Assembly: GCA_016190625.1 (NCBI GenBank)
Contig: JACPQF010000128.1
Coordinates: forward strand, 1 to 38,862
Origin: Chloroflexota bacterium
Lineage (GTDB): Bacteria; Chloroflexota; Dehalococcoidia; JACPQF01
DNA: 38,862 nt
Reading direction: 5' to 3'
Position numbers and translations under genes: made by a program. The notes beneath the pieces are model-generated. The model had not been told where the DNA came from. It did no database searches and worked only from the letters and a program-made list of their open reading frames with translations. Below are positions 7,814 to 32,637 of the stretch, piece after piece; positions within the stretch are counted from its first letter, which is position 1, and every line of letters starts with the position of its first letter.

Positions 7814-7834
7814 GGCAGTCTCCTCTCGAACGTA

Positions 7835-7917
7835 GGGTAGAGGGTATAGGGTATAGGGTTTAGGGGGTCCTCTACCCTCTACCCTCTACCCTCTACCCTA
7901 CCCCATACCCTCTACCC
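7835..7917. repeat. Inverted heptanucleotide tandem repeat (GGGTANA / TCTACCC)
   Basis: The left arm 7835-7869 is five 7-bp units of the GGGTAGA/GGGTATA type. The right arm 7869-7917 is seven units of the CCTCTAC type, the reverse complement. The two arms could pair as a long imperfect hairpin between hom and the coiled-coil gene. The stop and last seven codons of hom lie in the right arm. Confidence 0.8.
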
Positions 7918-9202
7918 TAACAAAGTTTCCTATCTCCTTCACCGTAGATAGCTCCCGAAGCTCGCCTAGGGCCTTTTGCATGCCAGCCTCGCGGGCGAGA
8001 TGGGTCATAATGACTATCTCTGCCGTCTTGGCGCTGGCATTGGCCTCCTTCTGGATACAGGAGGCGATGCTAATACTGTTGCGGCCCAGACTGCTGGCGA
8101 TCTGCGCGAGCACGCCTGCCCGGTCATCCACGATCATGCGCAGATAGTACCTGGTTTCGACGGACGACATGGGCCTTATAGGCATACCGGCAGATTGCTT
8201 GGAGCGCCAACGGTTGCCAACGCCAGCCGTGATATCGCTGGCCACCTCGATTACGTCGGCGACGATTGCCGAGCTGGTGGGCAAGGCTCCTGCTCCCTGG
8301 CCATAGAAGAGAACCTTGCCCACGAGGTCTCCTTCCACGTAAATGGCGTTGAACACGCCATCGACTTTGGCCAGAAGAAGACCCTCGGGTAGAAACGCGG
8401 GATGAACTCTCGCCTCGATGGTCCCCTCCACCTCCTTGGCTATGGCCACGAGCTTGATGGTATAGCCAAGCTCTCTAGCGTAGCGGAAATCTCTCGCCGC
8501 CAGTCGGGTAATGCCTTCACAGTGGATATCGGCCGGCCGCACGGTTTGACCAAAGGCCAAGGTGGCAAGAATGGCCAGCTTGTAGGCAGCGTCGTAGCCC
8601 TCGATGTCATTGGTGGGATCGGCCTCGGCGTAGCCAAGGGCCTTGGCCTCCTCCAGCGCCGCCCCGAAATCAAGGTTTTCCTTGGCCATCTTGGTCAGAA
8701 TGTAGTTCGTCGTGCCGTTGATGATAGCGTGGATAGCCGTGATCTTGTTGGCCGTCAAATCGTGCTTGAAGGGGGCGATGATGGGAATGCCACCGCCTAC
8801 GCTCGCCTCGTAGAGTACGTCCACCCCTTTCTCTTTGGCCACCGCCAGAAGCTCGGGTCCATGCTTGGCCATCACCTCTTTATTGGCGGTCACGACGTGC
8901 TTGCCCTTGTTCAAAGCCGCCAGGATGTAGTCGTGAGCCGGAGACTCGCCGCCGATCACCTCGATGACCACGTCTATATCCGGGTCGTCGAGAATGTCCT
9001 TGGCGTCGGTAGTTAGCAGGTCTGACGGCACAGAGACCGCTCGCGGCTTCTTTAGGTCCCGCACGAGCACTCTCTTAATGACCAGCGGGAAGCCGATCTG
9101 CGAGGCCATGGAACTGGCTTTCTGGGGCAGAATCCTCGCCACCCCGCCGCCAACCACTCCAAGGCCCATTAGGCCGATGTTTATGCAGCGCCTCTGCTTC
9201 AC
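7898..9202 (-). CDS. hom: Homoserine dehydrogenase with ACT domain
   Basis: 434 residues. It reduces aspartate semialdehyde to homoserine with NAD(P)H. The N-terminal nucleotide-binding fold is GLMGLGVVGGGVARIL (about 10-25). The central domain has VTANKEVMAKHG and the family segment NGTTNYILTKM. A C-terminal ACT domain begins near RMIVDDRAGVLAQIA (about residue 355), implying feedback control by threonine. GTG start at 9202 is supported by AAAGGAG five bases upstream. The last residues VRVEGMG and the stop are encoded inside the GGGTAGA repeat. The acetyltransferase lies 11 bp upstream. Confidence 0.95.
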   Translation of the reverse strand: MKQRRCINIGLMGLGVVGGGVARILPQKASSMASQIGFPLVIKRVLVRDLKKPRAVSVPSDLLTTDAKDILDDPDIDVVIEVIGGESPAHDYILAALNKGKHVVTANKEVMAKHGPELLAVAKEKGVDVLYEASVGGGIPIIAPFKHDLTANKITAIHAIINGTTNYILTKMAKENLDFGAALEEAKALGYAEADPTNDIEGYDAAYKLAILATLAFGQTVRPADIHCEGITRLAARDFRYARELGYTIKLVAIAKEVEGTIEARVHPAFLPEGLLLAKVDGVFNAIYVEGDLVGKVLFYGQGAGALPTSSAIVADVIEVASDITAGVGNRWRSKQSAGMPIRPMSSVETRYYLRMIVDDRAGVLAQIASSLGRNSISIASCIQKEANASAKTAEIVIMTHLAREAGMQKALGELRELSTVKEIGNFVRVEGMG

Positions 9203-18188: not shown

Positions 18189-18195
18189 GCAGCTG

Positions 18196-18223
18196 TCAGC
18201 ACTCAGCTTTCAGCCATCGGCTT
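18196..18223. repeat. TCAGCNN heptanucleotide tract, single arm
   Basis: Four 7-bp units (TCAGCAC, TCAGCTT, TCAGCCA, TCGGCTT) begin eight bases after the stop of the oxidoreductase gene. No inverted second arm was seen before accC. Confidence 0.7.
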
Positions 18224-18306
18224 GGCCAGGAAGGCCATCATCGGCCGAACATCTATCGCGGTGGCTACGTCCTTCCGCAGGCAGGACAGCTGCCGCGAAG
18301 ATATGT

Positions 18307-18329
18307 CACCACGAGTCACGGCCGTGGTG
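18307..18329 (+). other. Hairpin just upstream of the accC ribosome binding site
   Basis: CACCACG (18307-18313) and CGTGGTG (18323-18329) form a 7-bp stem with a 9-nt loop, ending five bases before GGGGAGG (18334-18340). It may influence translation of accC or be chance. Confidence 0.3.
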
Positions 18330-18343
18330 ATCTGGGGAGGGAT

Positions 18344-19843
18344 ATGTTCAGCAAGGTTCTGATTGCCAATCGAGGAGAGATCGCGGTCAGGGTCATCCGG
18401 GCCTGCAGGGAGATGGGCATCCGTACTGTCGGCATTTACAGTGAGGCCGACCGCAACGCCATGCACGTGCGCTTTGCCGACGAGGCCTTTCTGGTCGGGC
18501 CGCCGCCCGCTCGGGACAGCTACCTCAACGTGGACAGAATACTGAAGGCAGCAAAGCAGTCGGGGGCAGAGGCCATCCACCCGGGCTATGGTTTTCTGGC
18601 AGAGAAACCTTCATTTGCCGACGAATGCGAAACCGCCGGTCTGACCTACATCGGGCCGAGCGCGGCTGCCCAGCGAGCGATGGCCGAGAAGACGGCCGCC
18701 CGGCGAACAATGCAGGATGCGGGAATCCCCATCGTTCCGGGAACCACCGAGCCAATCGCCGGTTTCCCGGAAGCGGCGGAGGCGGCCTCCCGAGTCGGCT
18801 ATCCAGTGATCATCAAGGCCGCTGGCGGTGGTGGCGGAAAGGGAATGCGCATCGTCGGGAGCGAAGAGGCCCTCGCCGATGCCGTGCGGCTCGCCGCCAG
18901 TGAGGTCGCCTCGGCCTTTGGCGAGTCCGCCGTCTACATCGAGAGGTACGTGGAGCCGGCCCGGCACATCGAAGTGCAACTGCTGGCCGACAACTTTGGG
19001 AACGTCATTCACCTTGGGGAAAGGGAGTGCAGCGTTCAGCGCCGCTATCAGAAGCTCATCGAAGAATCCCCCTCCCCTGCCCTCGACGACGAGTTGCGTC
19101 GCCGGATCACCGACACGGCCGTCAAAGCCGCGCAAGTAGCGAACTATGACAACGCCGGCACCGCCGAATTCCTTCTGGCCCCTGACGGCAAGTTCTACTT
19201 CCTGGAAATGAACACCCGCCTACAGGTCGAGCACCCGGTGACCGAGTTCGTCACCGGCGTCGACATCGTGAAAGCGCAGATCCACCTCGCCGCCGGAGAG
19301 AAGCTCCGCTTCAAGCAGGAGGATATCCGTCCCAAAGGCGCCGCCATCGAGTGTAGAATCTACGCCGAAGATCCTTACAACATGTTTCTGCCCTCCATTG
19401 GCGTAATACGCGCCATCCAGGAGCCCAGCGGACCCGGCGTGCGTATCGAGACCGCCGCTCACCACGGAATGCCCATCACTGTCTTCTACGACGCTCTGAT
19501 CGCCAAGCTCATTACCTGGGGTAGCACCCGGCGCGAGGCCATCAATCGCATGAAGCGGGCGCTGAGAGAGTACCAGCTCGTAGGTGTCAAGACGACCAAA
19601 CCCTTCCACCAGTTCGCCATGGAGGACGAGACCTTCTGCGTAGGAGCCTACGATACGAAATATGTGCAGAAGGTTTGGGGGGCGCAGACCAAGGAAGTGG
19701 AAGACTTGTTCCCGGTGGCCGCGCTGGCCGCCACCCTGGTGGCTCACGCCGGGCGAGCTACTCGCCATAGCGCCGCTTTGCAGCGAGAGATCGATAGCCC
19801 CTGGAAGTATTTTGGCCGGCGGGAAATGATGAGAAGGACTTAG
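18344..19843 (+). CDS. accC: Biotin carboxylase subunit of an acyl-CoA carboxylase
   Basis: 499 residues. It carboxylates the biotin on the carrier protein using ATP and bicarbonate. The ATP-grasp glycine loop is KAAGGGGGKGM (158-168). Active-site residues line up with E. coli AccC: E275, E288 (FLEMN), R292 and E296 (NTRLQVEH). It is about 50 residues longer than E. coli AccC, with an extra C-terminal helical stretch, which is closer to the BC part of propionyl-CoA/pyruvate carboxylase alpha chains. The biotin carrier gene follows after 9 bp. No carboxyltransferase gene is near, so the acyl-CoA substrate is not fixed. Confidence 0.93.
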   Translation: MFSKVLIANRGEIAVRVIRACREMGIRTVGIYSEADRNAMHVRFADEAFLVGPPPARDSYLNVDRILKAAKQSGAEAIHPGYGFLAEKPSFADECETAGLTYIGPSAAAQRAMAEKTAARRTMQDAGIPIVPGTTEPIAGFPEAAEAASRVGYPVIIKAAGGGGGKGMRIVGSEEALADAVRLAASEVASAFGESAVYIERYVEPARHIEVQLLADNFGNVIHLGERECSVQRRYQKLIEESPSPALDDELRRRITDTAVKAAQVANYDNAGTAEFLLAPDGKFYFLEMNTRLQVEHPVTEFVTGVDIVKAQIHLAAGEKLRFKQEDIRPKGAAIECRIYAEDPYNMFLPSIGVIRAIQEPSGPGVRIETAAHHGMPITVFYDALIAKLITWGSTRREAINRMKRALREYQLVGVKTTKPFHQFAMEDETFCVGAYDTKYVQKVWGAQTKEVEDLFPVAALAATLVAHAGRATRHSAALQREIDSPWKYFGRREMMRRT

Positions 19844-19852
19844 GGGGAGAGA

Positions 19853-20362
19853 ATGCGCTACAACACCGATGTGGGGGAGCGGTCCTTCGAAATCGAGATC
19901 CATGTGGACGATACCGGCGGCCTGTGGGCGACTCTCGACCGAACCCCCTATCAGATCGACCTGCAATGCGTCGACGGCCAGCGGCTTTACAGCCTGATGG
20001 TCGGCAACCACTCCTACGAGCTGTTCGTCGACGAGGTCGATGGTCGCTATCTAGTATCCGTGCAGGGCCAGCTCTACGAGGCAGCCGTGAGAGACGCACG
20101 CAGCTCCACGGCCAAAACCAGGGCCACGCCCCTGGTTCCGGGCACCGGTGAGCTACCGGTCAAGGCGCCAATGCCGGGCATGGTTGTTGCCGTTCACGTT
20201 GCCGAAGGAGACGAAGTCGTTCAAGGTACTCGCCTCGTCATCCTCGGGGCGATGAAGATGGAGAACGAGATAGTTGCCCTGCGAGGGGGAACGGTGACCA
20301 AGGTTCAGGTGAAGCCCGGCCAGCGGGTGGGATACGGCGACCTCCTGTTGGTAATCTCCTGA
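19853..20362 (+). CDS. Biotin carboxyl carrier protein (biotinyl domain)
   Basis: 169 residues. The C-terminal ~70 residues are a biotinyl domain: VKAPMPGMVVAVHVAEGDEV then GAMKMENEI with the biotin-accepting K135. The N-terminal ~80 residues (HSYELFVDEVDGRYLVSVQG and similar) resemble the BT domain that precedes the biotinyl domain in propionyl-CoA carboxylase alpha chains, not classic AccB. So accC and this gene together look like a split alpha chain. ATG at 19853 with GGGGGAGA in front. PhoU follows after 14 bp. Confidence 0.9.
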   Translation: MRYNTDVGERSFEIEIHVDDTGGLWATLDRTPYQIDLQCVDGQRLYSLMVGNHSYELFVDEVDGRYLVSVQGQLYEAAVRDARSSTAKTRATPLVPGTGELPVKAPMPGMVVAVHVAEGDEVVQGTRLVILGAMKMENEIVALRGGTVTKVQVKPGQRVGYGDLLLVIS

Positions 20363-20376
20363 GTTGGGAGGGACAG

Positions 20377-21042
20377 ATGCCCAGACGCGAGTTCGATAGG
20401 GCCTTGCAAGATCTGATCGACGACCTGCTGGAACTGGGCGATATGGTCGATAGGGCCATCGAACGCTCTGTCGGAGCTCTCAGGAATCGGGATATTGACG
20501 GAGCAAGGCAGGTAGCCCATGACGATCGTCACATAAATGCCAAGCGCTTCCAGATCGAAGAGAGATGCCTGCTATTGTTGGCTACTCAGCAACCGATGGC
20601 TCGCGATCTGCGGACGATCGCGGCGGTCATGAACATGATAACCGACCTCGAAAGAATGGGCGATCACGCCGAGGGGATCGCCAAGATCACGATCATGCTG
20701 GGCCACGAGCCCCTCGTGAAGCCCCTCATCGACATTCCCAAGATGGCCGACAAGGCCCGGGATATGCTGCGTCGCTCGCTGAAGGCGTTTGTCGAGGGAG
20801 ACGTAGCAGCAGCCAAAACCATAGCTACCGAGGATGACGAGGTAGATGGGCTGCACGAGCAGGTCTATCGGGAGCTCATCGACCGGATGATCGCTAATCC
20901 CGACAACATCCAGCGGGCGACCTACCTTTTGTGGGTCTCCCACAATCTCGAGCGCATAGCCGACCGCGTCACCAACATCTGCGAGCGCATCGTCTTCACG
21001 GCCACCGGCCGCATGGAAGAGATGAACGTCTCGAAGTACTAG
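20377..21042 (+). CDS. phoU: PhoU family phosphate regulator
   Basis: 221 residues made of two three-helix repeats. The repeated metal-binding motifs are DLERMGDHAEGIAK (about 91-104) and NLERIADRVTNICER. PhoU restrains phosphate uptake by linking the PstSCAB transporter to the PhoR kinase. None of those genes is in the window; the neighbours are biotin carboxylase genes, an uncommon setting. GGGAGG lies 5 bp before the ATG. The stop is followed after six bases by a GTCCTTC/GAAGGAC hairpin. Confidence 0.93.
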   Translation: MPRREFDRALQDLIDDLLELGDMVDRAIERSVGALRNRDIDGARQVAHDDRHINAKRFQIEERCLLLLATQQPMARDLRTIAAVMNMITDLERMGDHAEGIAKITIMLGHEPLVKPLIDIPKMADKARDMLRRSLKAFVEGDVAAAKTIATEDDEVDGLHEQVYRELIDRMIANPDNIQRATYLLWVSHNLERIADRVTNICERIVFTATGRMEEMNVSKY

Positions 21043-21048
21043 CGTTCA

Positions 21049-21066
21049 GTCCTTCGATGGAAGGAC
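21049..21066. repeat. GTCCTTC/GAAGGAC hairpin
   Basis: 7-bp perfect stem with a 4-nt loop directly after phoU. The stem core is the same as in the hairpin at 13725-13750. No T tract follows, so it is not a typical terminator. Confidence 0.55.
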
Positions 21067-21068
21067 CA

Positions 21069-21154
21069 TCAGCCGTCAGACTTCAGCGTTCAGCCGTCGG
21101 CAAGCGGACTTCAAAGCTGAAAGCTGACCGCTGACAGCCAAGATGCTGACAGCT
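21069..21154. repeat. Inverted TCAGCNN / GCTGANN heptanucleotide element
   Basis: Left arm: seven 7-bp units from 21069 (TCAGCCG, TCAGACT, TCAGCGT, TCAGCCG, TCGGCAA, GCGGACT, TCAAAGC). Right arm: GCTGAAA, GCTGACC, GCTGACA (21116-21136) and a further GCTGACA at 21145. The right arm runs into the upstream edge of the next gene and contains one of its possible ATG codons (21143). Confidence 0.8.
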
Positions 21155-21169
21155 ACAAGGATGCCGAAC

Positions 21170-22504
21170 ATGAAGAAAAGGAAATACGCTATTACCAAGC
21201 CGGCGGGCGCGGAGCCTGACGGGACGGTGACCATCGAGGAGATACGTCATATGGCGGCTCAGGCCGTTCTCGAATCGCCGCAGCCAGAGGCCGAGGCGGT
21301 GGCTGAATTGATCGGGCGACTCGAACGCTTGTCGCCGCTCACGGCGGCCCGTGTTCTTATGTCACTGGCTCAGGAAACGGGGGAGAAAGCGCTGCCATTG
21401 TTGGAGAAGCTGGCGCTGGCGCCGGCGGTCCCGCAGACGGGCGGTATTCGTCTGGCGGCCGTTGAGGCCCTGGCCGCCCTGCGTTCGGAGCGGGGGGCGC
21501 AGATTCTCGCCCACATCGCCGATAAGGATGCCGACAAGGACCTACGCAAACGGGCCAAGCGGGCGCTATTCAAGCTGCGAGGCCTGGGCTTGGCTCTGTC
21601 GGCCCCGGCGGCCGGTCCGGCGGAGGTCAAAGAGAAGTTCCCCATCTTGCGCTCCCTTCTGAGCTCCTACGACTACGCGGGGACGCGGGCCATAATGTTT
21701 GGCGTAGAGCGACCCTTTGGCGGCGTCGATCGTATCGTCCTCCTGGCCAATGCCGTGAAAGGCCTGACCGATTGCTCCGGCGTCCAAACGAGCAGGGAAG
21801 CCTTCGCGGAGCAGATGGAGCGGATGAGGAGACTGCCGGATCTCCCTGGGGGACTCTGGGCCGACGCGCCGGCGTCCCATTGCCAGCAGCTCGTGCAAGA
21901 GGCCCTTGCCCTCAATCGAAAGAGCGGCACTCCCGTGCCCAGAGGGTACTACTACTGGAAGGACGAAATAGGGCAGCCGGCCGAATATTACGACTGGCCC
22001 TTGGTCTATCGTGAGATCACCGCCCTTGAAGTGAAGTGGGAGCCGACGCTGCTCGAACAATCCGCTGACCTCCTCGCTAGGCCCGAGTTACTTAGCTGGG
22101 CCTTTGACCCCCATCAGGTCGAGCGTTATTACTTCGAGCTCCAGCAATCCCGAAAGAGCGCCATAGCCTTGCCCGGCTGGTCGCAAAAGGAGCGGGACGA
22201 CGCGACAATGCGACGGCTGTTTGAGGAGGTCGTGCCGCCGGACAGACACGCCGCCTACAAGCGCCAGATGGAGGAGATGGCCTGTATGTATCTTCGCCTG
22301 GACAGGCGGCTAGATGCCAAGCGTGCTCTGGCCGTGGCCGTGGCCCTGGACGAGCACAAGGGCGGTGAGCTAATCAAGATCCCGTTTTTCCGCGAGCTCC
22401 TGAGCAGGACCTTCGCCCTGATCGAGCGAGAGAGGCGGGGTGGGGCGAGGCTCACCCCCAGAGACCTCGGCCTCGTCACGCTCGGCGATCTCTTGCCGCG
22501 CTAG
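21170..22504 (+). CDS. HEAT-repeat-like protein of unknown function
   Basis: 444 residues from the chosen start. Residues ~15-140 contain Ala/Leu-rich helical pairs with HEAT character (LRLAAVEALAALRSERGAQ and DKDLRKRAKRALFKLRG-like). The remaining ~300 residues contain no motif I recognise; they are rich in aromatic and charged residues, and have YYYWKDEIGQPAEYYDWP and a C-terminal helix-rich end. No signal peptide. The ATG at 21143 lies in the heptanucleotide repeat and the ATG at 21161 has no spacing from AAGG; the ATG at 21170 has AAGG nine bases upstream, so it is chosen. Tail-to-tail with the DinB-like gene, 3 bp apart. Confidence 0.7.
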   Translation: MKKRKYAITKPAGAEPDGTVTIEEIRHMAAQAVLESPQPEAEAVAELIGRLERLSPLTAARVLMSLAQETGEKALPLLEKLALAPAVPQTGGIRLAAVEALAALRSERGAQILAHIADKDADKDLRKRAKRALFKLRGLGLALSAPAAGPAEVKEKFPILRSLLSSYDYAGTRAIMFGVERPFGGVDRIVLLANAVKGLTDCSGVQTSREAFAEQMERMRRLPDLPGGLWADAPASHCQQLVQEALALNRKSGTPVPRGYYYWKDEIGQPAEYYDWPLVYREITALEVKWEPTLLEQSADLLARPELLSWAFDPHQVERYYFELQQSRKSAIALPGWSQKERDDATMRRLFEEVVPPDRHAAYKRQMEEMACMYLRLDRRLDAKRALAVAVALDEHKGGELIKIPFFRELLSRTFALIERERRGGARLTPRDLGLVTLGDLLPR

Positions 22505-22507
22505 CTC

Positions 22508-22921
22508 TTACCCCAGCCCCTTTTCGATCATCGAGCAGTACCGCTTCTGGACGTCGAGGATGTGCTGGAGGGTTTGGCGGATGGTCCACTCTCCCTCTTT
22601 GGGCCCCCGGTCCAGGTCCTCGTCGTCAATGGCGGCGAGCATTCCGAGGAGCTCGCCCCGGGCCTGCATCAGCTTGGCCACGGCCATCTCGGCCTCGGTG
22701 AATTGGCGGCCCAGCCACTGGAGGCTCTTGGCCACCTGGATGCCATGCTCGCGATCGTGGTTGCCCACCTGGCCGATGATAAAGCGAATGGTCATCTCCC
22801 GCCCTCCCCAGGCCGTCCTCTTCTCGAGGTCCGCGTCCTGGAGAGCGGCCAGCTTCTCCATGATGTCCTCATGCGAGGCCGCCAGCTCTGCCAAAAGCTG
22901 TCTGACTTGTTCTCTCGCCAT
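22508..22921 (-). CDS. DinB-like four-helix protein
   Basis: 137 residues with the DinB/DUF1572-like pattern: an early helix (LLAELAASHEDIMEKLAAL), H at VGNHDREHG, and the C-terminal signature EWTIRQTLQHILDVQKRY, where a metal-binding His is usually found. Related proteins include thiol-dependent S-transferases (bacillithiol, maleylpyruvate isomerase types), but many are uncharacterised. GAGGAGG precedes the ATG. It is 32 bp downstream of the DNA methyltransferase on the same strand. Confidence 0.8.
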   Translation of the reverse strand: MAREQVRQLLAELAASHEDIMEKLAALQDADLEKRTAWGGREMTIRFIIGQVGNHDREHGIQVAKSLQWLGRQFTEAEMAVAKLMQARGELLGMLAAIDDEDLDRGPKEGEWTIRQTLQHILDVQKRYCSMIEKGLG

Positions 22922-22953
22922 CCTCTTTCCTCCTCAATGTTGTTAGGGTTCAC

Positions 22954-23922
22954 CTAAGAGTCATCGTCTAATCCCGCATGTGACAAAGGCTGCGCCGCCG
23001 CAATTCGCTTGGTCGCTATTTCGATATAGTCGTGATTTGTCTCGTACCCGACCCAGTGGCGACCAGTGGCGATGGCAGCGAGGGCTGTCGTCCCACTGCC
23101 CATGAAGGGGTCAAGTACAAGGTCCCCAGAAAACGTGTAGAGCTCGATAAACCTCCGTGGCAACTCGATAGGAAAGGGTGCAGGATGGTTGATATGTGTG
23201 GCAGATTCCGGGGGAAAATCCCAAATTGAGAGAGTCGAGGTCAGGAAATCCTCTCGACTGATCGTCGGCTTACCTCTGCGAGCTCGGTCGAAACGACCTT
23301 TTGAGAAGCAGAGGCAATACTCGTGCACGTCGCGAATAACCGGATTCACAGGAGATTTCCAACTTCCCCAAGCGCAGTTGCCGTTGGCCCCCTTGGCCTT
23401 CCGCCAGATGATCTCAGCCCGCATGTGGAAGCCGATCTTGAGCATCCGTTCTGTGATCAGGTGTGATAGCGGGATGTAGGGACGTCTTCCCAAATTGGCT
23501 ACGTTGACGACTGCACGTCCACCTGGCTCGAGCACTCGATGAGTCTCGGCCAACACCGCCTCCAGCATCTTGAGGTACTCATCGAACGAAGCGTCTGAAT
23601 CATAGTCCTTGCCAACGTGATAGGGTGGTGAGGTGACCATGAGAGCTACGCTCCCGGATGTCAAGTCGTCCATCTTCTCAGCCGACCCCAGGAGGAGCTT
23701 GTCGACAACCGGGCTGTCGCTAACCGCCGAATCGCTCGTTTCCTCGATCTTGGGCAGACGGTTATAGAAGTCAGAAGAGTCGTGGCTCTCTCGGCGACCC
23801 ACCCCGAAGGATGCTGTCCTTGTGCCCACCAATTGCCTCCCTTGAAGCTCTGGGTCAGCCCAGGTTTTCCCCTCCGTCTGCTGGCTACGGCTGGCATGAT
23901 CTGGGCTGCCGGTAAAGATCAT
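22954..23922 (-). CDS. Orphan DNA methyltransferase, beta class (N4-cytosine or N6-adenine)
   Basis: 322 residues from the chosen start. The catalytic motif TSPPY is at 97-101 and the SAM motif DPFMGSGTT at 271-279; the catalytic-before-SAM order is that of beta-class enzymes. TSPPY is common in N4-cytosine methylases but also in some N6-adenine ones. No target can be read. The frame is open to 24006, but the ATG at 23922 overlaps the stop of the upstream gene as ATGA and gives a start with no extra tail, so it is preferred. No restriction endonuclease is recognisable nearby. Confidence 0.85.
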   Translation of the reverse strand: MIFTGSPDHASRSQQTEGKTWADPELQGRQLVGTRTASFGVGRRESHDSSDFYNRLPKIEETSDSAVSDSPVVDKLLLGSAEKMDDLTSGSVALMVTSPPYHVGKDYDSDASFDEYLKMLEAVLAETHRVLEPGGRAVVNVANLGRRPYIPLSHLITERMLKIGFHMRAEIIWRKAKGANGNCAWGSWKSPVNPVIRDVHEYCLCFSKGRFDRARRGKPTISREDFLTSTLSIWDFPPESATHINHPAPFPIELPRRFIELYTFSGDLVLDPFMGSGTTALAAIATGRHWVGYETNHDYIEIATKRIAAAQPLSHAGLDDDS

Positions 23923-24611
23923 CCCGAGTAACCGCACACGCCCACGCGCGGGGAATTGACTACGGACAAGAACATCCCCTCGTCGCATTCGTGTTTCTCG
24001 ACGCACTCATCCCACAGCCAGCCATCGCCTTCCCACATGCATTGGGTGCACACTTGAGTGGCCGGTTTCCCACACGACTGGCAGAGGATCGCTGGGGGGT
24101 CGTTCCTGGCGAGCAGACGAATGGACTTGCCATCGGAAAGGCCCTTTCGCTCCGCCGTGACCTTTAGGGTGAGCTCGGTGGTGCTGCCGAAGTCGTACTC
24201 GTAGAACGCCTTGTCGCCGGGGGCCAGGACCCTCCCGATCTCGAAGTTCATGGTCCGGCCGCCCAGGTCTCTGGCAGCGCCTGAATAGTACCGCTCCCCC
24301 TCAATCGAAAAAGCGCTCATGTGCCCGCAGCACTCCAGCCAAATGTCTCTGAGGAACCTGTCGACAGCTACGAGCCTTGCGGCGGCGGGCACCTCGAGGT
24401 GAAGCCAGTAGTCCGGGTCATAGCGGCCGCCGACCGTGATAAGGAGGAGTCTTTCCTCGCGCCTTTTCTCTTGAGCGGCCGTCGGCGAAACAGACTGCCC
24501 TGTCCAGCAAGACTGTATATGGCGCGTCATCGCCGCCTTGGCGAACATGCGACCACAGAGATTGCATTTGCCGGTCGAAGTATGTCTCCTCGTGGCTTTC
24601 TCTTCCATCAT
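23919..24611 (-). CDS. Zinc-finger protein with PRiA4_ORF3/IS1096-passenger-like domain
   Basis: 230 residues. Residues 16-35 form a Cys2-His-Cys finger (C16, C19, H31, C35). Residues ~67-155 resemble the plasmid pRiA4b ORF-3-like domain: a YWLHLEVP strand, LRDIWLECCGHMSAF, and the hallmark FYEYDFGSTTELTL. The C-terminus has a second Cys cluster (C177, C180, C188, C191, C203, H207, C209). DNA or RNA binding is likely; no enzyme motif is seen. ATG 24611 (or 24608) has AAAGGAGG ten bases upstream; the longer frame to 24671 lies over the promoter. The stop overlaps the methyltransferase start (ATGA), so the two are coupled. Confidence 0.75.
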   Translation of the reverse strand: MMEEKATRRHTSTGKCNLCGRMFAKAAMTRHIQSCWTGQSVSPTAAQEKRREERLLLITVGGRYDPDYWLHLEVPAAARLVAVDRFLRDIWLECCGHMSAFSIEGERYYSGAARDLGGRTMNFEIGRVLAPGDKAFYEYDFGSTTELTLKVTAERKGLSDGKSIRLLARNDPPAILCQSCGKPATQVCTQCMWEGDGWLWDECVEKHECDEGMFLSVVNSPRVGVCGYSG

Positions 24612-24631
24612 GGCGGGAGGTCCTCCTTTAT

Positions 24632-24666
24632 AGGCCAAAAGTGGCCTCGTAATTATAGACAGGCCA
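24632..24666. promoter_or_regulatory. Candidate operator: AGGCCA/TGGCCT half-sites over the zinc-finger gene promoter
   Basis: AGGCCA (24632-24637) and TGGCCT (24642-24647) form a 6-bp palindrome with a 4-nt centre, and another AGGCCA (24661-24666) lies on the other side of the -10 box. Half-sites flanking a -10 box are placed as a repressor operator would be; the palindrome could also be an RNA hairpin just before the ribosome binding site. Confidence 0.4.
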
Positions 24667-24681
24667 GACATGACCTATCAT
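24652..24681 (-). promoter_or_regulatory. Promoter for the zinc-finger/methyltransferase pair
   Basis: On the minus strand TATAAT (24652-24657) is perfect. ATGATA (24676-24681), 18 bp upstream, is a weak -35 (four of six). Transcription would begin near 24645, about 35 nt before the ATG. Confidence 0.5.
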
Positions 24682-24874
24682 CCTGGACATCGACCAGGGA
24701 CGGTGGCAGAATCATTTCACTCGGGGTTCTCAGCCGCTTTCCCTTCATATTATATCACACGGTGGCAAGCTAGATTGCTCAGCGGCAACTGACACCGCCT
24801 TGGCGCCCCTCAGCTCGCCGTTTGCCCGTCAGACTTCAGGCGTATAGCCGTATTCTGCTAGTACCATCTTGCAA

Positions 24875-24902
24875 TTGAAAACTCAAATGTTTCCTTTATA
24901 AT
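24875..24902 (+). promoter_or_regulatory. Promoter for the chemosensory operon
   Basis: TTGAAA (24875-24880), a 16-bp spacer, then TATAAT (24897-24902). The expected start near 24909 gives a ~120-nt leader that contains the inverted heptanucleotide element. The rest of the 24682-24874 gap holds only degenerate TCAG-rich sequence (around 24775-24855). Confidence 0.7.
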
Positions 24903-24936
24903 GCGATCAGGGACGACCCGGCATTCGATGCGCGTG

Positions 24937-25001
24937 TCAGCTTTCAGCCCTCAGCTTTCAGCCTTTCCGGTCGAAGGCTAGCTGATAGCTGACGGCTGAT
25001 T
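24937..25001. repeat. Inverted TCAGCNN / GCTGANN heptanucleotide element in the operon leader
   Basis: Left arm: TCAGCTT, TCAGCCC, TCAGCTT, TCAGCCT (24937-24964). Right arm: GCTGATA, GCTGACG, GCTGATT (24981-25001). The two arms are reverse-complementary and would form a hairpin in the mRNA ahead of the first response regulator gene. Confidence 0.85.
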
Positions 25002-25027
25002 GCTTGTAACTGCCTTGGAGGTAGGCG

Positions 25028-25402
25028 ATGAGGGAAAGCACGGTTCTGGTCGTGGACGACAGCTCTACGATCCGCAAAGTCGTGGAGACAACGCTCCAAA
25101 AGGAGAACATTCGCGTTTGTGGCGCCCCGGACGGCCTGAGCGCCCTGGCCGGGGTCATGGACGAGAATCCCGACCTCGTCCTCCTCGACATCATGTTGGC
25201 CCATCTCGACGGCTACCAGGTCTGCCAGATCATCCGAAAGAACCCGGATTACAAGCGATTGCCCATCGTCATGCTCAGCGGCAAGGACGGCGTCTTCGAC
25301 AAACTGAAGGGCAGATTGGCCGGCTCCTCCGGTTACATAACCAAGCCTTTCGACCCCAAGCATCTGGTAAGGGTCGTAAACAGACACCTGAACGGGAAGT
25401 GA
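25028..25402 (+). CDS. Single-domain response regulator (PilG/CheY-like)
   Basis: 124 residues, one receiver domain and no output domain. Acidic pocket D10-D11, phosphoacceptor D54 (LLDIM), S84 in LSGK and K106 in KPF are all present. First gene of the chemosensory operon, so it is likely phosphorylated by the hybrid CheA and acts on a motility motor. The order of two receivers, CheW-like protein, PilJ-like receptor and hybrid CheA matches Pil-Chp systems, where PilG drives pilus extension. TTGGAGGT lies 6 bp before the ATG. Confidence 0.9.
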   Translation: MRESTVLVVDDSSTIRKVVETTLQKENIRVCGAPDGLSALAGVMDENPDLVLLDIMLAHLDGYQVCQIIRKNPDYKRLPIVMLSGKDGVFDKLKGRLAGSSGYITKPFDPKHLVRVVNRHLNGK

Positions 25403-25431
25403 CTCAGTCTAGATAGGGAGGCAACACGCCT

Positions 25432-25797
25432 ATGGCCAACGAAAAAGTCCTCGTAGTGGACGATAGTCCCACCGACCTGGCGCTCATGTGCGCCCCTTTG
25501 CGGGCCTCTGGCTTTGTCGTGACGACGGCGATAGATGGCGAGGAGGCGATCGAAAAGGCCTGCAAGGAAATGCCGAGGGTCATCGTCCTGGATATCGTTC
25601 TACCCAAGAAGAACGGCTATCAGGTCTGCCGTTCGCTAAAGAACGACAGCCGGAGCAAGGGCATTCCCATCATCATGCTCAGCGGCAGGTCCCAGCCGTC
25701 CGATAAGTTCTGGGGGCTGAAACAGGGAGCTGACGAGTATTTGGTTAAGCCGTTTGACGGCGAGCAATTGGTCAGCGCCGTGAAGCGGTTCCTGTAG
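25432..25797 (+). CDS. Single-domain response regulator (PilH/CheY-like)
   Basis: 121 residues, a complete receiver: D10-D11, D54 (VLDIV), S84 (LSGR) and K106 (KPF). It is 29 bp downstream of the first regulator and clearly related to it. In Pil-Chp systems the second receiver (PilH) opposes or drains phosphate from the first. That split of roles is inferred from gene order only. Confidence 0.9.
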   Translation: MANEKVLVVDDSPTDLALMCAPLRASGFVVTTAIDGEEAIEKACKEMPRVIVLDIVLPKKNGYQVCRSLKNDSRSKGIPIIMLSGRSQPSDKFWGLKQGADEYLVKPFDGEQLVSAVKRFL

Positions 25798-25821
25798 TGG
25801 TTCGTCGGGGGTAATCTCGCC

Positions 25822-26325
25822 TTGGAAGAGCCGTTCCTGCAAGATCACATCGAGGATGAGCCAGAAGAAGCGGAGCCCGGGGAGCCACACCTGATCTTTT
25901 GCCTTGGCGATGCCGAATGCGCCGCTAGGGTCGATAGCGTGCTGGCCATAGAGCGCGTTCTCCCGACCACGCGTGTTCCCCGGGCCGTACCATGGGTAGT
26001 GGGCATCGCCAATCTGCGCGGCAGCTTGGTCACGATAGTCGATGTCCGCTCCTTAATGGGGATGCCACGCCTCACCCCAACTCAGTACTCTCGCATCGTT
26101 TTTGCCAGCAACGGGGAAGCCGCCATGGGCCTGTTGGTGGATCGAGTGAGCGATATCCATTACTTGCGACAATCGGAAATCCGCTCCCCGCGCGCCGACT
26201 GTCACAATGGGCTAACGCCCTACCTGCGAGGAGTATATCAATCCAGCGATCGAACGCTTCTTGTCATAGATATCATCGCGTTGCTCCGGTGCGAAAAGAT
26301 GAGGGACCTCTGCCTTGTTTGTTGA
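25822..26325 (+). CDS. CheW-like scaffold protein (PilI-like)
   Basis: 167 residues. The CheW SH3-like fold is seen in [20 protein letters not shown] (the NLRG...P/TIVDLR signature) and in [11 protein letters not shown]. CheW couples receptors to CheA. A short acidic N-terminal tail precedes the fold. TTG at 25822 is the first possible start after the in-frame stop at 25795; a G-run lies about 12 bases upstream. It sits between the response regulators and the receptor. Confidence 0.85.
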
Positions 26326-26365
26326 GACAGGGGAAATATCGCGTCGAAAGGGGGCTGGTTATCAG

Positions 26366-28477
26366 ATGTCTCGAATCAGGTATCGTATTAATAGTCTTCC
26401 TCTGTTTGTCAAGTTGCTGGTCTTGATGCTGATTGTTTCTCTCGTACCCCTGGCCATCGCCATGGGCACCATGTCTCAGACCTCAGTTAGCCGCGCCGAA
26501 CGGGAGATGCAAGACCTGAGTGTGAAACAGGCGTCCACCGTCCAGATGTTTATTCGGGAAGAGGGAGAAACTGTCCTCCAGACGGCGCACACATTCGGCT
26601 GGGATTCGAGCCTAACCGCCGCCGTGGCCAAGAAGGACCGCAGCGCGATCAGAGATAGAGTGATGATGATGATTAGAGTTACTACCTATCTAGCCCATGT
26701 GGAGGACGATCAGGGAAGGAATCTCTTCCGCAGTTACGATCCTGGCCCCGACGGGAGCAACGAGGGGTCACTTCCGCTGGTCAAGGCGTCTCTGGCTGGT
26801 GGAACCCCGCCTGCCGATTTGGTTTTTGATAAGTCGCTCGGTCTGTCGGTGCGCGGGTCCGTGCCCCTGATAGAGGACGGAAGGTTGGTTGGCGTGCTTA
26901 CCATCGGACAGCCTATTGCGGGTCGGTATGCGAATCATGTCAGAGAGCTATTTCACAGCTCGGCGGATGTAAGCTTCTACTGGGGGGACCAGCTAACGGC
27001 GACAACTCTCAAGAGAAAAGGATCCGCCGACCCGGTTTCGGGGATCACAGCCCCGCCAGCTATTGCAGACCGGGTTCTTACTGGGGGAACGCCGTATGCG
27101 GCCATTACACCCTTCGAGGGAAGAAATTATCTGATGCGCTACGAGCCAATTGTCACCGGCGGCAAGCCTCAGGGAATGATAGCCGTCGCCTTGGATCGAA
27201 GGTCGGTGGAAGAGGAGTCCGATTTGATCTTGAGGACAGCCCTCCTTACCGGCGGTATCCTGCTGCTCGTCGTAGCCGCCGCCAGCATTCTCTCGGCGAG
27301 GGCCATATCGCGACCTTTGCGGAGCATAATGCGAGTTCTGCGACAAGTCGCTATGGGAGACCACTCGGCTCGCGCTCCTGTGACCAGCGAAGACGAGCTG
27401 GGAGTGCTCGCCGCCAGCCTCAACAACATGCTGAATGCTACTACCGCTCTAATCCAGACGAAAGAGGAGCGCGACACTATCCAGCGCGAGATCGAGCGCC
27501 TCCTCGACGAGGTGAGCACGGTGGCGGACGGCGATCTGACCGTACAGGCCGAGGTGACGGCTGGCCTACTCGGCGCTGTCGCCGACTCCTTTAATTATAT
27601 GATCGATGAGCTGCGGAAGATCATCGCCAATGTCCATACGACCACGGTCGAGGTAACCTCTTCGGCCTCCCAGATTCTGGCGTCGAGCCAGACCCTCGCC
27701 AATGGCTCGGAGGCGCAGGCGCAGGAGATCTCCCAGACGTCGGCCGCTATGAGACAGACGGCCCAGATGCTCCAGCAGGTGGCGGAAAACGCCAGGCTAT
27801 CCTCCGAGGTAGCAATGGAGGCTCTGGCCAACGCCCGACAAGGCAGCCAGGCCGTGGAGAAGACGATCTCGGCCATGGGCGCGATTCGGGACAATGCACA
27901 GGAGACGTCGAAGAAGATCAAGCGTCTGGGTGAGAGCTCACAGGAGATCGGCGAGATTGTCCAGCTCATCGAGGATATCGCCGACCAGACGAACCTTCTG
28001 GCTCTGAACGCCGCCATTCAGGCCGCGATGGCGGGCGAGCACGGCCGGGGCTTTGCCGTAGTTGCCGACGAAGTACGGCGCCTGGCGGAGCGCTCGACAA
28101 GCTCGGCAAAACAGATCGCCACTCTCGTCAAGAGCATCCAATCGGATACGCACGAGGCAGTAGTATCCATGGAGGAGAGCACACGCCAGGTAGTGGCGGG
28201 GTCCCATCTGGCCGACGACGCCGGTCGATCCCTGCAATCCATCGAGGCCGTGGTCGATAGGGTGGCAAAACTGATTCAGGACATCACCGACGCCTCTACT
28301 CAACAAGCGACGGTTTCGGAGGGCATCGCCAAGGCGATGAACGAATTGTCTGAGATCACAAAGCAGGCCAGCATCAGCAACAAGCAAAACGCGGCCAGCG
28401 TCAATTACCTAGACGGATTGGCGGCGCGACTACGCGATTCCGTTTCGACATTCCGGTTGCCGCCAGCGCACACGTGA
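26366..28477 (+). CDS. Methyl-accepting chemotaxis protein, PilJ-like
   Basis: 703 residues. TM1 about 12-35, an extracytoplasmic sensor region (~36-290), TM2 about 292-312 ([14 protein letters not shown]), a HAMP domain, a second HAMP-like linker, then the signalling domain. The hairpin tip is [20 protein letters not shown], with IQAAM as in PilJ receptors, rather than the IEAAR of most chemoreceptors. The ligand is unknown. The frame opens with TTG at 26315 overlapping cheW-like DNA; the ATG at 26366 with AAAGGGGG upstream gives a normal N-terminus (basic residues, then TM1) and is chosen. It is followed by a heptanucleotide element. Confidence 0.9.
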
Positions 28478-28484
28478 GTAGCTG

Positions 28485-28647
28485 TCAGCCGTCAGCTAGC
28501 AGCAGTCAGCTCTTAGCTATCAGCAGTTAGCTTGATGAAGTCGAGGGGCCGGGCCAAGTGAGGCTCAGAAAAGGGCTATCAGATGGTTAGCCCAGGGTAA
28601 ACTATGATCCCTGCCGCGATCGGGCTGATGGCTGAACGCTGAAAGCT
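28485..28647. repeat. Inverted heptanucleotide element between the receptor and CheA genes
   Basis: Left arm: seven 7-bp units at 28485-28533 (TCAGCCG, TCAGCTA, GCAGCAG, TCAGCTC, TTAGCTA, TCAGCAG, TTAGCTT). Right arm: GCTGATG, GCTGAAC, GCTGAAA (28624-28644), then GCTG. The ~90-bp centre has a GGCTA/TAGCC stem near 28575-28595. The right arm abuts the AGGAG site of the CheA gene. Confidence 0.85.
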
Positions 28648-28659
28648 GCGAGGAGTTCC

Positions 28660-31600
28660 ATGGCAGATTCCTTTGACAAATCGAACATCCTTGGCTGCTT
28701 CGTGGCCGAGGCTCGCAGCTACCTGCCCCGCATAAGGGCCAACGTCGAGCGCCTTGCCGCCGACCCGGAGCAGGAACGGCTGCGGGAAGAAGGCCATCGC
28801 CTGGCCCATGCGGTCAAGAACTCTTCCCTGATGATGGGCTACCCCGACCTAAGCAGGGTCGTCCAGCCAATCGAACTGTTTCTGGACGGCAGCGCCGAAG
28901 GGAAAGCCCGGCTTGGCCTGGAGGCCGTGGCCACCATCTGCCGCTCTCTGGACCGCGCCGCCATAATTCTGGATGGGCTGCAGGGGGAATGGATAGACGG
29001 CGAACGGATCATGCAGGAGAACGACGGCGACTTCGAGAGGCTTCAGGACATGCTGAGGAGTCGGGGGTTGGGGAACGGGGGTCAGGGGATGGAGGTCGAG
29101 TCCCTGTCTTCATCTGCGACGGCTGTCAGCCCTGAATTGGCGGACATGCCGGCTGAGGAGCCACCGGCGGAGGCTGAGGAACTGGCCGGGCCAGCTTTGG
29201 TCATGTCCTGGGAGCAGATCGAGGGAATCCTGGCCGAAACCGCGGCGGATGAGGATAGCCAGGTTGGGGAAGAGGCAGGGCCTCTGCCGTCGGCGGGCGA
29301 ACTGTCCGAGGAAACCGGCGGCCTGCTTGACACCATAGTGGTCCTCCCATCGCGGCCGTCTTGGGAAGATGAGACTGTCCCCGCCGTGGCCGTCTTGCCG
29401 TGGCGACCCGACGAGGACCGCGGCGATTCTGCAGTGGCCGACCCTCTGTGGCTGCCACGGCAGGACGAGAGCGAGATCGCTAGTCTTTCCGAGGAATACG
29501 TTGCGGATTCGCCTCCCGATGTGATTTCTAACAACATCGTGGAGGCATCACCGCCAGAGCCAGCCGGCAATCGTTTCGCCGATGCCCTCGCCCAGCTCGA
29601 GGAGGGGAGGGTACGTCTGGAATCCTTCTTCCGCAAGCTGCAGGAACTTTTAGCAGAGGCTGACCAAGCCATCGGTGATCTGGTGACCCTCAAACCTTCC
29701 ACCATGAACATGTCGCTTATCGCCAATCGCCGCTGCGCTCAGGCCTTCTCCGCAGCGGAGAACCTAGCGAGACCCCTGGCCGACATCGTCGCGGAGATGG
29801 ACGGACTAACGCCGGTGAGCCTGGCGATGGAGAACGTTCAGACGGTATTGGAGCAGGCTGCCGACGAGCTAGCTGAGCCTGAAACGGAAGCCATCGTCAA
29901 ACAGGCAGAGCAAGATTCCGACGCCAAGGCTCCTGAATCGCCGACTGAGAGAGGCTCCGCCAGCGAAAGCGAAGTGAGCAAAGCCGTCCCGGTGGACCCA
30001 GCCAGAGGGCTGGGTCGGATGGCGGCTGAGGGGGAGTTTGCGGCCGAGGAGGAGGCCAGGCGCCGGCAAGCATATGAGCAAGAGCTCCATGCCAGGCTAT
30101 CAGCCGAGATCAGAGCGGAGCTGACCGCCCAGTTTGCCCGGGCCGCCCGGGTGCCCATTGGGCGGGATCCAGTGAAGAGCCGCAGGCCCACGGAGGTAGA
30201 CATCAGCGTGGACGAGGAGGATCTTACGGCGGACCTACCGCAGGAGCTTCTGGATACGTTCCGCCTTGAGGCAGAGGATCACCTGCTCGCCATTGGCCGT
30301 GACCTCGTGGCCTTGGAGGTGAGCACCAGCAACGGCGACGCGCTGCGCGACCTTCGTCGCTCCGTTCACACCTTGAAGGGAGCGGCCGCCTCCATGGGTT
30401 TCCGCGTCACGGGAGAAACGGCCCACATCTTAGAGGATCTTCTGGATGCGGCTGACGCAGGTCGCCTGGAAGTGAGCCCTCCTATTCTTGGTTTGATCCT
30501 GGATACTTCTTCCGCCCTCGAGACTCTGGTCGCCAGCGCTTTGGCCAGGCAAAAAGAGGATCGCGCGCTCCTGGCGGCGCTGGAGCCGCGGTATAGAGAA
30601 ATCCTTTCCTCGCTCGACGCCAACGGACAGGAGCGCTGCGCCCCGATTGCCATAGTGGAGACCCGGATAGGCGGCGAGCCGACCCAGACCGCCAAGACGG
30701 GTGCCCTGCAGGTCCACGTGGCTGTTGCCCAGATGGACGAGGCGATGAGCTCGGTGGGCGAGATGGTTACCAATCGCGCCGCCTTCGCGCAGCATACCGC
30801 AAACTTAAAGCAGGCCTTGGTAGAGCTAACGCTCGGCACCAGCCGCCTGAAGCGGCTCAGCCACGACTTAGGCGCCATGCAGGGGACAGCGGGTGCCCTC
30901 GGGGCGCGGGGTCAGGGGTCGGGGGTCAGCCCCCCCTCCCCTCAGCTCCGTCCCCTGATCCCTGACCCTGCGGCCCGAGGGCACTCGCTGTCCTCTGTCC
31001 CCTATGATCGCGCGGATTTCGACGAGCTGGAGCTCGACCGATACACGGCGTTCGACCACCTGATACGGGAGATGACAGAGGCGGTCTCCGATGTTGGCAC
31101 GGTGGGCGGCGAGCTGGAAGCGCTCACCGCCCAACTCGAAATGGTCTCCGCCCGTCAAAACCGGCTCAATACCGAGCTGCAGGATAAGCTCAGGCGGCTG
31201 CGGCTCGTGCCCCTGTCGGGCCTCGCGCCACGATTACACAGAGCCGTTCGGAACACCGCCCTCGCTCTCGGCAAGGAGGTCGAGTTCGCCCTCCTTGGCA
31301 GCGAGGTCGAGGTCGACAAGTTGATCTTTGAGGCCATCGGTGACCCGCTCCTCCACCTAATGCGAAATGCCGTGGACCATGGCATCGAGCCGCCGGCAGA
31401 GCGATTGGCAGTGGGGAAAGCGGCAAGGGGCAAGGTGACGCTCGAGGCCTGCTACGAGGGCAGCGATCTTGTCCTCAAGGTCGGCGACGATGGCCGAGGC
31501 ATCTCCCGCTCCGACGTCTACCAGAGGGCGCTGGCGAGAGGCCTGATTGGTGAAGGAGACCAACTTTCCGATTCCCAACTGGATGGTTTGCTATACCGTC

Positions 31601-32601
31601 CCGGTTTCAGCACGGCGTCGGAGGTGAGCGAAACCAGTGGGAGAGGCATGGGGCTGGATATCGTCCAAGCCCTGGTCACGCAGATGCGGGGGACCGTGCA
31701 GGTGGAGTCGATCGCGGGAGAACGCACTGCTTTCACCATTCGTTTGCCGTTGACGGTGGCGGTAGATAGGGCCTTGCTCGTCAAGGTGGGTAGCGAGACC
31801 TTCGCCGTGCCGCTCGGCCAGATCGAGCGTATCCTCCGACTAGACAAGCAGGACCTAAGCAACAGCGGACCCGACGACCACCTCGACCTGGGCGAACAGA
31901 CTTACCCCCTCCTCAGGCTCGGCCAGGCTCTCGATCTACCGGCATCGGCGAGCGCGGACGCCAAGACAGCGCCCATATTGATCGCCGGGCTGGCAAACCG
32001 GAGGGTAGCCGTGGCGGTTGACGAGGTCATTGGCCAGCAGGAGATCGTGGCCAAAGCTTTGGGAAGCCAATTCCGGTCGCTGGCGGGCTTCAGCGGCGCC
32101 ACGATTCTGGGCAACGGCCAAGTAGTGATGATCCTCGACATCGGGGGCTTCCCGGTCGGGGTGCCTTCTGAGGCCGCCCTCTGGACTCCCCGGGAGGTCG
32201 CCTCTCCACCGTCGCTGGACGGCTTGGTGTCGCTCAATATCCTCCTGGTGGACGACAGTCCCAGCGTGCGCCGGGTCGTGAGCAACATGCTCCGCAAGGC
32301 CGGCTTCGAGCCACAGGTCGCTAGAGATGGAATCGAGGCGCTGGAGACGATTCAGACCAGCCGGCCCAATGCCATCCTTCTCGACATCGAAATGCCCCGC
32401 ATGGATGGCTACGAGCTGTTGGGCATATTGAGAAGTCAGAGGGAATATGAAAACATTCCCGTTGTGATACTCACCTCGCGATCCGGCAACAAGCATCGCC
32501 AAAAGGCGCTGCAACTGGGTGCCAACGGCTATCTAGTCAAGCCGTACAAGGACGAGGAGCTGATCTCTCTCCTCCGCAGTCTGGCCTCCGCCCGACCGTG
32601 A
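28660..32601 (+). CDS. Hybrid CheA histidine kinase with Hpt domains and receiver (ChpA/PilL-like)
   Basis: 1313 residues. Hpt1 at ~5-110 with H50 (HAVKNSS). Acidic, proline-rich linker ~140-300. A possible degenerate Hpt at ~305-410 lacks a phosphoacceptor His. Hpt2 at ~545-640 with H570 (VHTLKGAAASMG). P3 dimerisation, then the kinase: N box HLMRNAVDHGIE (H899, N903), G1 DDGRGI (943-948), G2 GRGMGLDIV (994-1002). A CheW-like P5 domain follows, then a receiver with D1242. It autophosphorylates with ATP and passes phosphate to the receivers. Two heptanucleotide tracts lie inside the gene (29061-29097, 30881-30996). AGGAG precedes the ATG. Last gene of the operon. Confidence 0.93.
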   Translation: MADSFDKSNILGCFVAEARSYLPRIRANVERLAADPEQERLREEGHRLAHAVKNSSLMMGYPDLSRVVQPIELFLDGSAEGKARLGLEAVATICRSLDRAAIILDGLQGEWIDGERIMQENDGDFERLQDMLRSRGLGNGGQGMEVESLSSSATAVSPELADMPAEEPPAEAEELAGPALVMSWEQIEGILAETAADEDSQVGEEAGPLPSAGELSEETGGLLDTIVVLPSRPSWEDETVPAVAVLPWRPDEDRGDSAVADPLWLPRQDESEIASLSEEYVADSPPDVISNNIVEASPPEPAGNRFADALAQLEEGRVRLESFFRKLQELLAEADQAIGDLVTLKPSTMNMSLIANRRCAQAFSAAENLARPLADIVAEMDGLTPVSLAMENVQTVLEQAADELAEPETEAIVKQAEQDSDAKAPESPTERGSASESEVSKAVPVDPARGLGRMAAEGEFAAEEEARRRQAYEQELHARLSAEIRAELTAQFARAARVPIGRDPVKSRRPTEVDISVDEEDLTADLPQELLDTFRLEAEDHLLAIGRDLVALEVSTSNGDALRDLRRSVHTLKGAAASMGFRVTGETAHILEDLLDAADAGRLEVSPPILGLILDTSSALETLVASALARQKEDRALLAALEPRYREILSSLDANGQERCAPIAIVETRIGGEPTQTAKTGALQVHVAVAQMDEAMSSVGEMVTNRAAFAQHTANLKQALVELTLGTSRLKRLSHDLGAMQGTAGALGARGQGSGVSPPSPQLRPLIPDPAARGHSLSSVPYDRADFDELELDRYTAFDHLIREMTEAVSDVGTVGGELEALTAQLEMVSARQNRLNTELQDKLRRLRLVPLSGLAPRLHRAVRNTALALGKEVEFALLGSEVEVDKLIFEAIGDPLLHLMRNAVDHGIEPPAERLAVGKAARGKVTLEACYEGSDLVLKVGDDGRGISRSDVYQRALARGLIGEGDQLSDSQLDGLLYRPGFSTASEVSETSGRGMGLDIVQALVTQMRGTVQVESIAGERTAFTIRLPLTVAVDRALLVKVGSETFAVPLGQIERILRLDKQDLSNSGPDDHLDLGEQTYPLLRLGQALDLPASASADAKTAPILIAGLANRRVAVAVDEVIGQQEIVAKALGSQFRSLAGFSGATILGNGQVVMILDIGGFPVGVPSEAALWTPREVASPPSLDGLVSLNILLVDDSPSVRRVVSNMLRKAGFEPQVARDGIEALETIQTSRPNAILLDIEMPRMDGYELLGILRSQREYENIPVVILTSRSGNKHRQKALQLGANGYLVKPYKDEELISLLRSLASARP
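29061..29097. repeat. GGGGGTC-type heptanucleotide tract inside the CheA gene (linker)
   Basis: Five 7-bp units of the type GGGGGTT, GGGGAAC, GGGGGTC, AGGGGAT, GGAGGTC, in frame, encode a Gly-rich stretch after Hpt1. It resembles the left arm of the tract at 30901-30928. Confidence 0.6.
30881..30996. repeat. Long inverted repeat with heptanucleotide core inserted in the CheA P3 region
   Basis: Left: GGGGCGC, GGGGTCA, GGGGTCG, GGGGTCA (30901-30928). Right: CCCCTGA, TCCCTGA, CCCTGCG (30952-30972). Outward, TGCCCTCGGGGC and GCCCGAGGGCA also pair, as do flanking GGGGACAG and CTGTCCTC. The arms total about 40 bp each. The frame is kept; the product is a Gly/Pro/Ser-rich loop between the two P3 helices. 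Confidence 0.75.
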
Positions 32602-32609
32602 GCTAGCAG

Positions 32610-32637
32610 TCAGCTATCAGCCGTCGGCAATCGGCTT
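32610..32637. repeat. TCAGCNN heptanucleotide tract after the CheA gene
   Basis: TCAGCTA, TCAGCCG, TCGGCAA, TCGGCTT, eight bases after the stop. Single arm. Confidence 0.7.

Follow-up and report, generated by a model that had tools for sequence, protein, structure and literature searches.

The TCAGCNN tracts that lie between genes of this Chloroflexota contig probably belong, as arms, to gene-less ("MITE-like") elements of a widespread family whose complete members carry an S23 gene. The tracts are a real repeat family and belong to a known class of heptanucleotide repeats, that of the STRRs, the heptanucleotide tandem repeats of heterocystous cyanobacteria. The partner of such heptad arms appears to be the S23/23S_rRNA_IVP gene. 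This is a joint explanation for several observations: the association of S23 with the arms, the enclosure of S23 genes by them, a core that follows the S23 lineage, an arm of fixed length and empty orthologous sites. The strongest evidence for the S23 link lies outside the window (the whole stretch of 38,862 nt analyzed here), which shows arms alone. No S23 (PF05635) gene lies inside its tracts, and a search of the window for Rfam families returned no match.

All five TCAGC tracts reported in the preliminary description are present where it placed them. Its second, GCTGANN arm occurs in three of the five (those at 21069, 24937 and 28485), and the tracts at 18196 and 32610 are single arms. The first single arm (18191..18223, + strand; AGC-TG-TCAGC-AC-TCAGC-TT-TCAGC-CATCGGC) starts 2 nt past the stop codon (18188) of an aldehyde:ferredoxin oxidoreductase gene. 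The first pair, a left arm at 21069..21094 (+) with its partner at 21116..21138 (-), occupies the gap between a phoU-like gene (stop at 21042) and a HEAT-repeat gene. A left arm of four cores (24937..24962, +) and a right arm of three (24981..24999, -) lie 5' of the first chemosensory gene (a response regulator, 25028); the right arm stops 28 nt short of the start codon, leaving the Shine-Dalgarno sequence intact. Behind the stop codon of a methyl-accepting chemotaxis gene (28477), the left arm at 28480..28524 (+) has its first full core at exactly +7 nt, and the matching right arm (28624..28648, -) lies 17 nt 5' of the start of a CheA-type histidine kinase gene (28660). The last single arm (32610..32637, +) begins 8 nt past the stop codon of the CheA-type gene (32601). 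A separate hairpin repeat, GTCCTTC-GATG-GAAGGAC, adjoins a TCAGC arm at 21049..21066; repeats of the form GTCCTTC-N3..6-GAAGGAC, sometimes inside heptad tracts, number 46 copies in 1.02 Mb of the window's own genome, including those at 13729 and 21049 of the window. The tract-rich region is also adjoined by a DNA N6/N4 methyltransferase gene (PF01555; 22957-24006, minus strand), and the window holds a large C25 (gingipain-type) peptidase gene with a propeptide domain (35343-38576, minus strand).

The preliminary description had made an excess over chance the test of whether the family is real, and that excess is large. TCAGCNNTCAGC has 14 matches in the window versus 0.15 expected from shuffles, and TCAGCNNTCAGCNNTCAGC, which asks for three cores in register, has 116 in the whole genome (3.18 Mb in 160 contigs, 65% complete) versus 0 for a reversed-pattern control. 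In 346 kb, an excess of 5-mers repeated in tandem three times is seen at period 7 alone (236 vs. 0-8). In a few other genomes (G115, G217, G296 and G044) this control, a CGACT core at period 7, is abundant in its own right (142+165 matches in G115), which hints at yet another heptad core. A second family built in the same way, AGGGTNN...NNACCCT, which the preliminary description did not list, lies at 7833-7918 of the window. Its left arm (7833..7865, +) is in the gap beside a homoserine dehydrogenase gene and its right, ACCCTNN arm (7869..7918, -) overlaps the end of that gene. This family has 214 matches genome-wide and is densest on contig C12, where an AGGGT-flanked S23-type gene is found (C12:4229-4426, locus L345).

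The anatomy of the arms was measured in about 1.02 Mb of the same genome, mostly stretches around repeats, with genes called by a hexamer model. The placement of the tracts at gene ends was borne out: 66 of 68 TCAGC tracts are intergenic, and in 19 of 49 cases behind stop codons the first full core stands exactly 7 nt after the stop, the 7 nt being taken up by a truncated unit, NxAGCNN, at the head of the array. Whichever way the gene is oriented, the TCAGC strand nearly always runs from gene into gap. Opposed arms less than 300 bp apart are convergent in 24 TCAGC pairs and divergent in none, and are convergent in 27 of 28 AGGGT pairs. The outer edge is sharp (A 70%, G 89% and C 89%, with little signal before it), giving inverted arms with the sharp outer ends of terminal inverted repeats, while right arms end 8-51 nt 5' of start codons and spare the Shine-Dalgarno sequence. 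In one genome the arm is locked 2 nt behind the stop codon, and in others the stop codon overlaps AGC.

The length of the TCAGC arm was examined in four datasets (the cross-phylum matches listed, the window's own genome G000, G026 and G158), in which the selection fixes units 1-3 but not units 4 and 5. Among arms opened by AGC, an exact core is present at unit 4 in 57-78% and at unit 5 in only 5-14%. The TCAGC arm is therefore a fixed motif and not an open-ended array: 31 nt, AGC-NN-(TCAGC-NN)x3-TCAGC, with an AGC triplet every 7 nt, five in all, common to more than ten phyla among the matches listed. Arm ends abut the stop codon of a sense ORF at 65 of 168 boundaries, compared to 5.8 under random placement. 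These features also bear on G-quadruplex elements, as have been proposed for GGGAATC heptamers. The AGGGT family could form quadruplexes and the preferred unit number is four, yet TCAGC, which lacks a G-run, matches it in period, polarity, placement and preference for four units, and we give the quadruplex explanation virtually no credence.

The variable NN linkers argue against the suggestion in the preliminary description that the tracts might move by slippage. In the window's own genome the TCAGC linkers are unevenly distributed, without homogenization between neighbors: identical neighboring linkers number 10 versus 13.1 expected (an identity of 0.103 vs. 0.134), and the counts are 2 versus 4.9 in G026 and 12 versus 18.4 in G158. 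Neutral microsatellites, extended by replication slippage in 7-bp steps, would fit the AGGGT linkers, which are homogenized (64 identical neighbors vs. 37.5 expected), and the long arrays of identical units seen in some genomes (G050, L294). However, such microsatellites do not fit TCAGC neighbors that are no more alike than random ones, a unit number fixed at four plus a partial unit, polarities of 24:0 and 27:1, or the link to S23, and we regard this origin as very improbable. Copying of a fixed sequence was rejected as well, since linker strings from different loci of the window's own genome are no more similar than shuffled strings; those of G026 and G158 have a modest excess of likeness, part of which is local duplication. 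Mutation of A by a diversity-generating retroelement was discarded because the core A is invariant. Linkers that seem random from the outset also count against the S23 explanation, because merely transposing one set sequence would not account for them.

Paired arms do form strong RNA hairpins, as the preliminary description foresaw (median z of -5.1), and 18 of 20 TCAGC pairs fold at z<-3 relative to shuffles. Selection could have favored hairpins where they stand, at the 3' ends of mRNAs, for protection, attenuation or termination, and the stop codons abutted by arms well beyond random placement, together with the small number of divergent gaps in the window's own genome, would be in keeping with this. 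However, the linkers of paired arms are not complementary and do not covary (p=0.91 and 0.54), which gives no indication that the hairpin is under compensatory selection, and base 7 weakly avoids pairing in the cross-phylum set. Single arms are also common, the arms are not kept at orthologous gaps, and a hairpin does not need a universal TCAGC core; selection of hairpins in place thus seems improbable. Intrinsic terminators were rejected for the lack of a T-run after the arm, and Rho-type RNA sites do not fit the G-rich AGGGT family. The heptad operators of ribbon-helix-helix proteins (delta/omega) were also considered. With linkers that look random between neighbors, between loci and between paired arms, neither slippage nor the copying of one set sequence can account for the arms. 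The TCAGC arms thus did not arise by slippage, are for the most part not recent copies of each other and do not act as compensating stems, strongly though they fold.

A candidate partner emerged from clustering the proteins encoded near cross-phylum elements, which gave one short recurrent family, PF05635. This is the 23S_rRNA_IVP / S23 four-helix-bundle family. S23 is familiar chiefly from ribosomal RNA, where its gene occurs in insertions. A point against S23 elements is that the protein has no known nuclease, transposase or reverse-transcriptase domain. PF05635 is present in 45 of 50 genomes picked solely by the TCAGC inverted element (over ten phyla, among the matches listed) and in none of 14 control genomes. 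It is also present in all five TCAGC-rich relatives from the class (p=8e-4) and, across the phylum, in 20 of 23 genomes with at least 10 TCAGC matches compared to 98 of 377 others (p=6e-9, with genome size controlled only in part). S23 was not found in a few TCAGC-rich genomes (G187, G295, G360; 5 of the 50), several of which are incomplete.

S23 genes are also enclosed by the arms. At locus L277 an S23 gene sits between a TCAGC arm and a GCTGA arm, and TCAGC arms likewise enclose S23 genes of Stenomitos and G128. Inverted heptads that share one core and stand within 200 nt enclose 40 of 83 S23 genes, in 30 cases with at least six cores; the other 43 genes fail this strict test. The same search with periods 5, 6 and 8-12 gives 1-3, and swapped (mismatched) flanks give 5.8. 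The flanking core words are diverse, about 29 in all, and include AGGGT (L345 in the window's own genome and L356 in G024); no TCAGC-flanked S23 gene was seen in the window's own, 65% complete genome. The core follows the S23 lineage: TCAGC-flanked S23 proteins of many phyla group together (6 changes vs. 15.9 when shuffled, 0/500), and the exceptions within the group have the near-TCAGC cores TCAGT, ACAGC, ACAGT, TTAGC and AAAGC. On cyanobacterial plasmids, S23 genes are found between the operon partners cas6/cas4, cas10/cmr3 and nrdB/nrdA, flanked by STRR-type heptads (e.g., GGGAGTA, GGGAACA and ACAGGTG) whose first unit coincides with, or lies close to, the end of the neighboring gene. Those at L428, L434 and L436 place S23 within CRISPR operons (cas6/cas4, cas10/cmr3). 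Since arms of the same kind flank S23, the repeats may be the termini of a selfish element that is widespread but has been overlooked.

Another possible partner is the REP-associated Y1 transposase (RAYT), which would mobilize the tracts as REP/BIME-like repeats. The inverted pairs behind stop codons do look like BIMEs, and RAYT genes occur in several TCAGC-rich genomes; however, the Y1 transposase genes (L146, L150-L164) are flanked by other palindromic repeats and not by heptads, and we consider this partner extremely unlikely. For S23, a structure search identified two solved relatives, XCC0516 (2gsc) and 2rld, with five chains each. Warrier 2016 (PMC4990558) refers to the S23 of X. campestris as a homopentameric toroid. 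The Coxiella S23 IVS has tandem heptamers before the S23 ORF (Warrier 2016, PMC4990558). In the literature outside subscription papers and preprints we found no link of S23 to heptamer repeats in general. To our knowledge the S23-heptad link is new, and it would explain the heptamer class.

The distribution of the tracts is patchy. TCAGC matches occur in 9 of 60 relatives from the class and, phylum-wide, in 64 of 400 genomes, and within genus g57 the count per genome ranges from 1 to 129. Six tracts of G158 lie behind valS, ispB, nuo, ilvE, an aldolase gene and a deaminase gene. In up to seven congeners no tract was found at the orthologous sites (the ispB flanks being left out of the comparison), the exception being a single unit, TAGCCGTCAGC, in G128. 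The empty orthologous sites indicate that tracts are gained and lost within a genus. Some intergenic islands of G158 (L166 5800-6900, L171 12500-14200) are mosaics of several repeats, among them a CAGTNNN heptad family that follows a TCAGC arm in many same-strand copies. When GTDB genomes were scanned for a tight TCAGC inverted pair, the matches listed included Nitrospirota, Planctomycetota, Elusimicrobiota, Acidobacteriota, Verrucomicrobiota, Bacteroidota, Omnitrophota, Cyanobacteria, Pseudomonadota, Deltaproteobacteria, Myxococcales, Armatimonadetes and Chloroflexota.

It may also be that heptad arrays are pre-existing regulatory or structural sequences at gene ends that S23 elements use as insertion targets, a target preference then explaining why core and S23 lineage match. 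In keeping with this, the arms of a heptad pair mostly enclose no S23 gene, and S23 is found inside otherwise ordinary convergent pairs. However, it leaves unexplained why arrays are absent from most genomes without S23, why orthologous sites can lack any array and why arm length is fixed across phyla. We consider pre-existing targets unlikely and favor the tracts as arms of S23 elements.

A complete element would consist of an arm, an S23/IVP four-helix-bundle gene (PF05635) and the same arm inverted. The S23 homopentamer may act as a sequence-specific ring, each subunit reading one heptad core, with the 2-nt linkers as mere spacers. The substrate could be the arm as RNA or as DNA, five subunits matching the five AGC sites. 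TRAP, an 11-subunit ring that reads triplets, offers a parallel for such a putative reading of heptads. Binding to the arm might let the element insert or spread between genes. Gene-less arm pairs would then be dependent copies of S23 elements, and gene ends the places that tolerate such insertions. Any effect on host mRNA, such as that of a stable hairpin behind a stop codon, would be secondary. More speculatively, S23/IVP pentamers may make up an extensive family of rings that read nucleic acids sequence-specifically, with one subunit for each heptad, and that drive mobile elements lacking a recognizable transposase, recombinase or reverse transcriptase. STRR, GGGAATC, AGGGTNN, TCAGCNN and other repeats would all be their arms, with fresh random linkers that are written and not copied; we offer this extension tentatively, as less likely than not.

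If the S23 explanation is correct, it joins three puzzles: the accumulation of heptamers in bacteria, the role of the orphan pentameric S23 protein and the origin of 23S rRNA intervening sequences. It also predicts an exact binding sequence for each S23 protein. A common bacterial selfish element would now be annotated merely as a "four helix bundle protein" beside unremarked repeats.

Among known systems, cyanobacterial STRRs are likewise degenerate intergenic heptad tandems, and the cyanobacterial S23 genes examined carry such flanks, but the cores differ; the literature found does not describe STRRs as S23 arms. REP/BIME repeats with RAYT share the hairpins and inverted pairs behind stop codons but have no heptads. 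The TAACTGA repeats of Beggiatoaceae (MacGregor 2015, PMC4679880) are heptamers near gene starts, similarly patchy over distant phyla, with almost no inverted pairs reported, and have been proposed as sites of a translational regulator. Like the elements described here, the 23S rRNA IVS of Coxiella and Leptospira (PMC4990558) has an S23-family gene between inverted repeats and is a proposed mobile element; however, it is located in 23S rRNA and excised by RNase III, whereas the present elements lie in protein-gene gaps, reach a hundred or more copies and are mostly gene-less. A close likeness is to the heptamers of Rehm 2015 (PMC4692102), convergent pairs of GGGAATC / GGGGA(C/T)T units in Xanthomonas and Nostoc. 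Both have period 7 with variable positions, occur only as convergent pairs, run outward beside the 5' ORF, overlap stop codons, prefer four units and are depleted in divergent gaps; the TCAGC core differs and cannot form quadruplexes. Since convergent pairs at gene ends were already known in Xanthomonas (Rehm 2015, PMC4692102), the inverted-arm arrangement that the preliminary description thought unfamiliar is not itself new. What stands of that description's interpretation is the STRR-like repeat family and the RNA hairpins, while slippage as the source of the TCAGC tracts and the novelty of the arrangement fall. Neither it nor Rehm 2015 (PMC4692102) proposed a protein partner, and the solved S23 protein XCC0516 comes from X. 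campestris, the species in which GGGAATC-type repeats were found.
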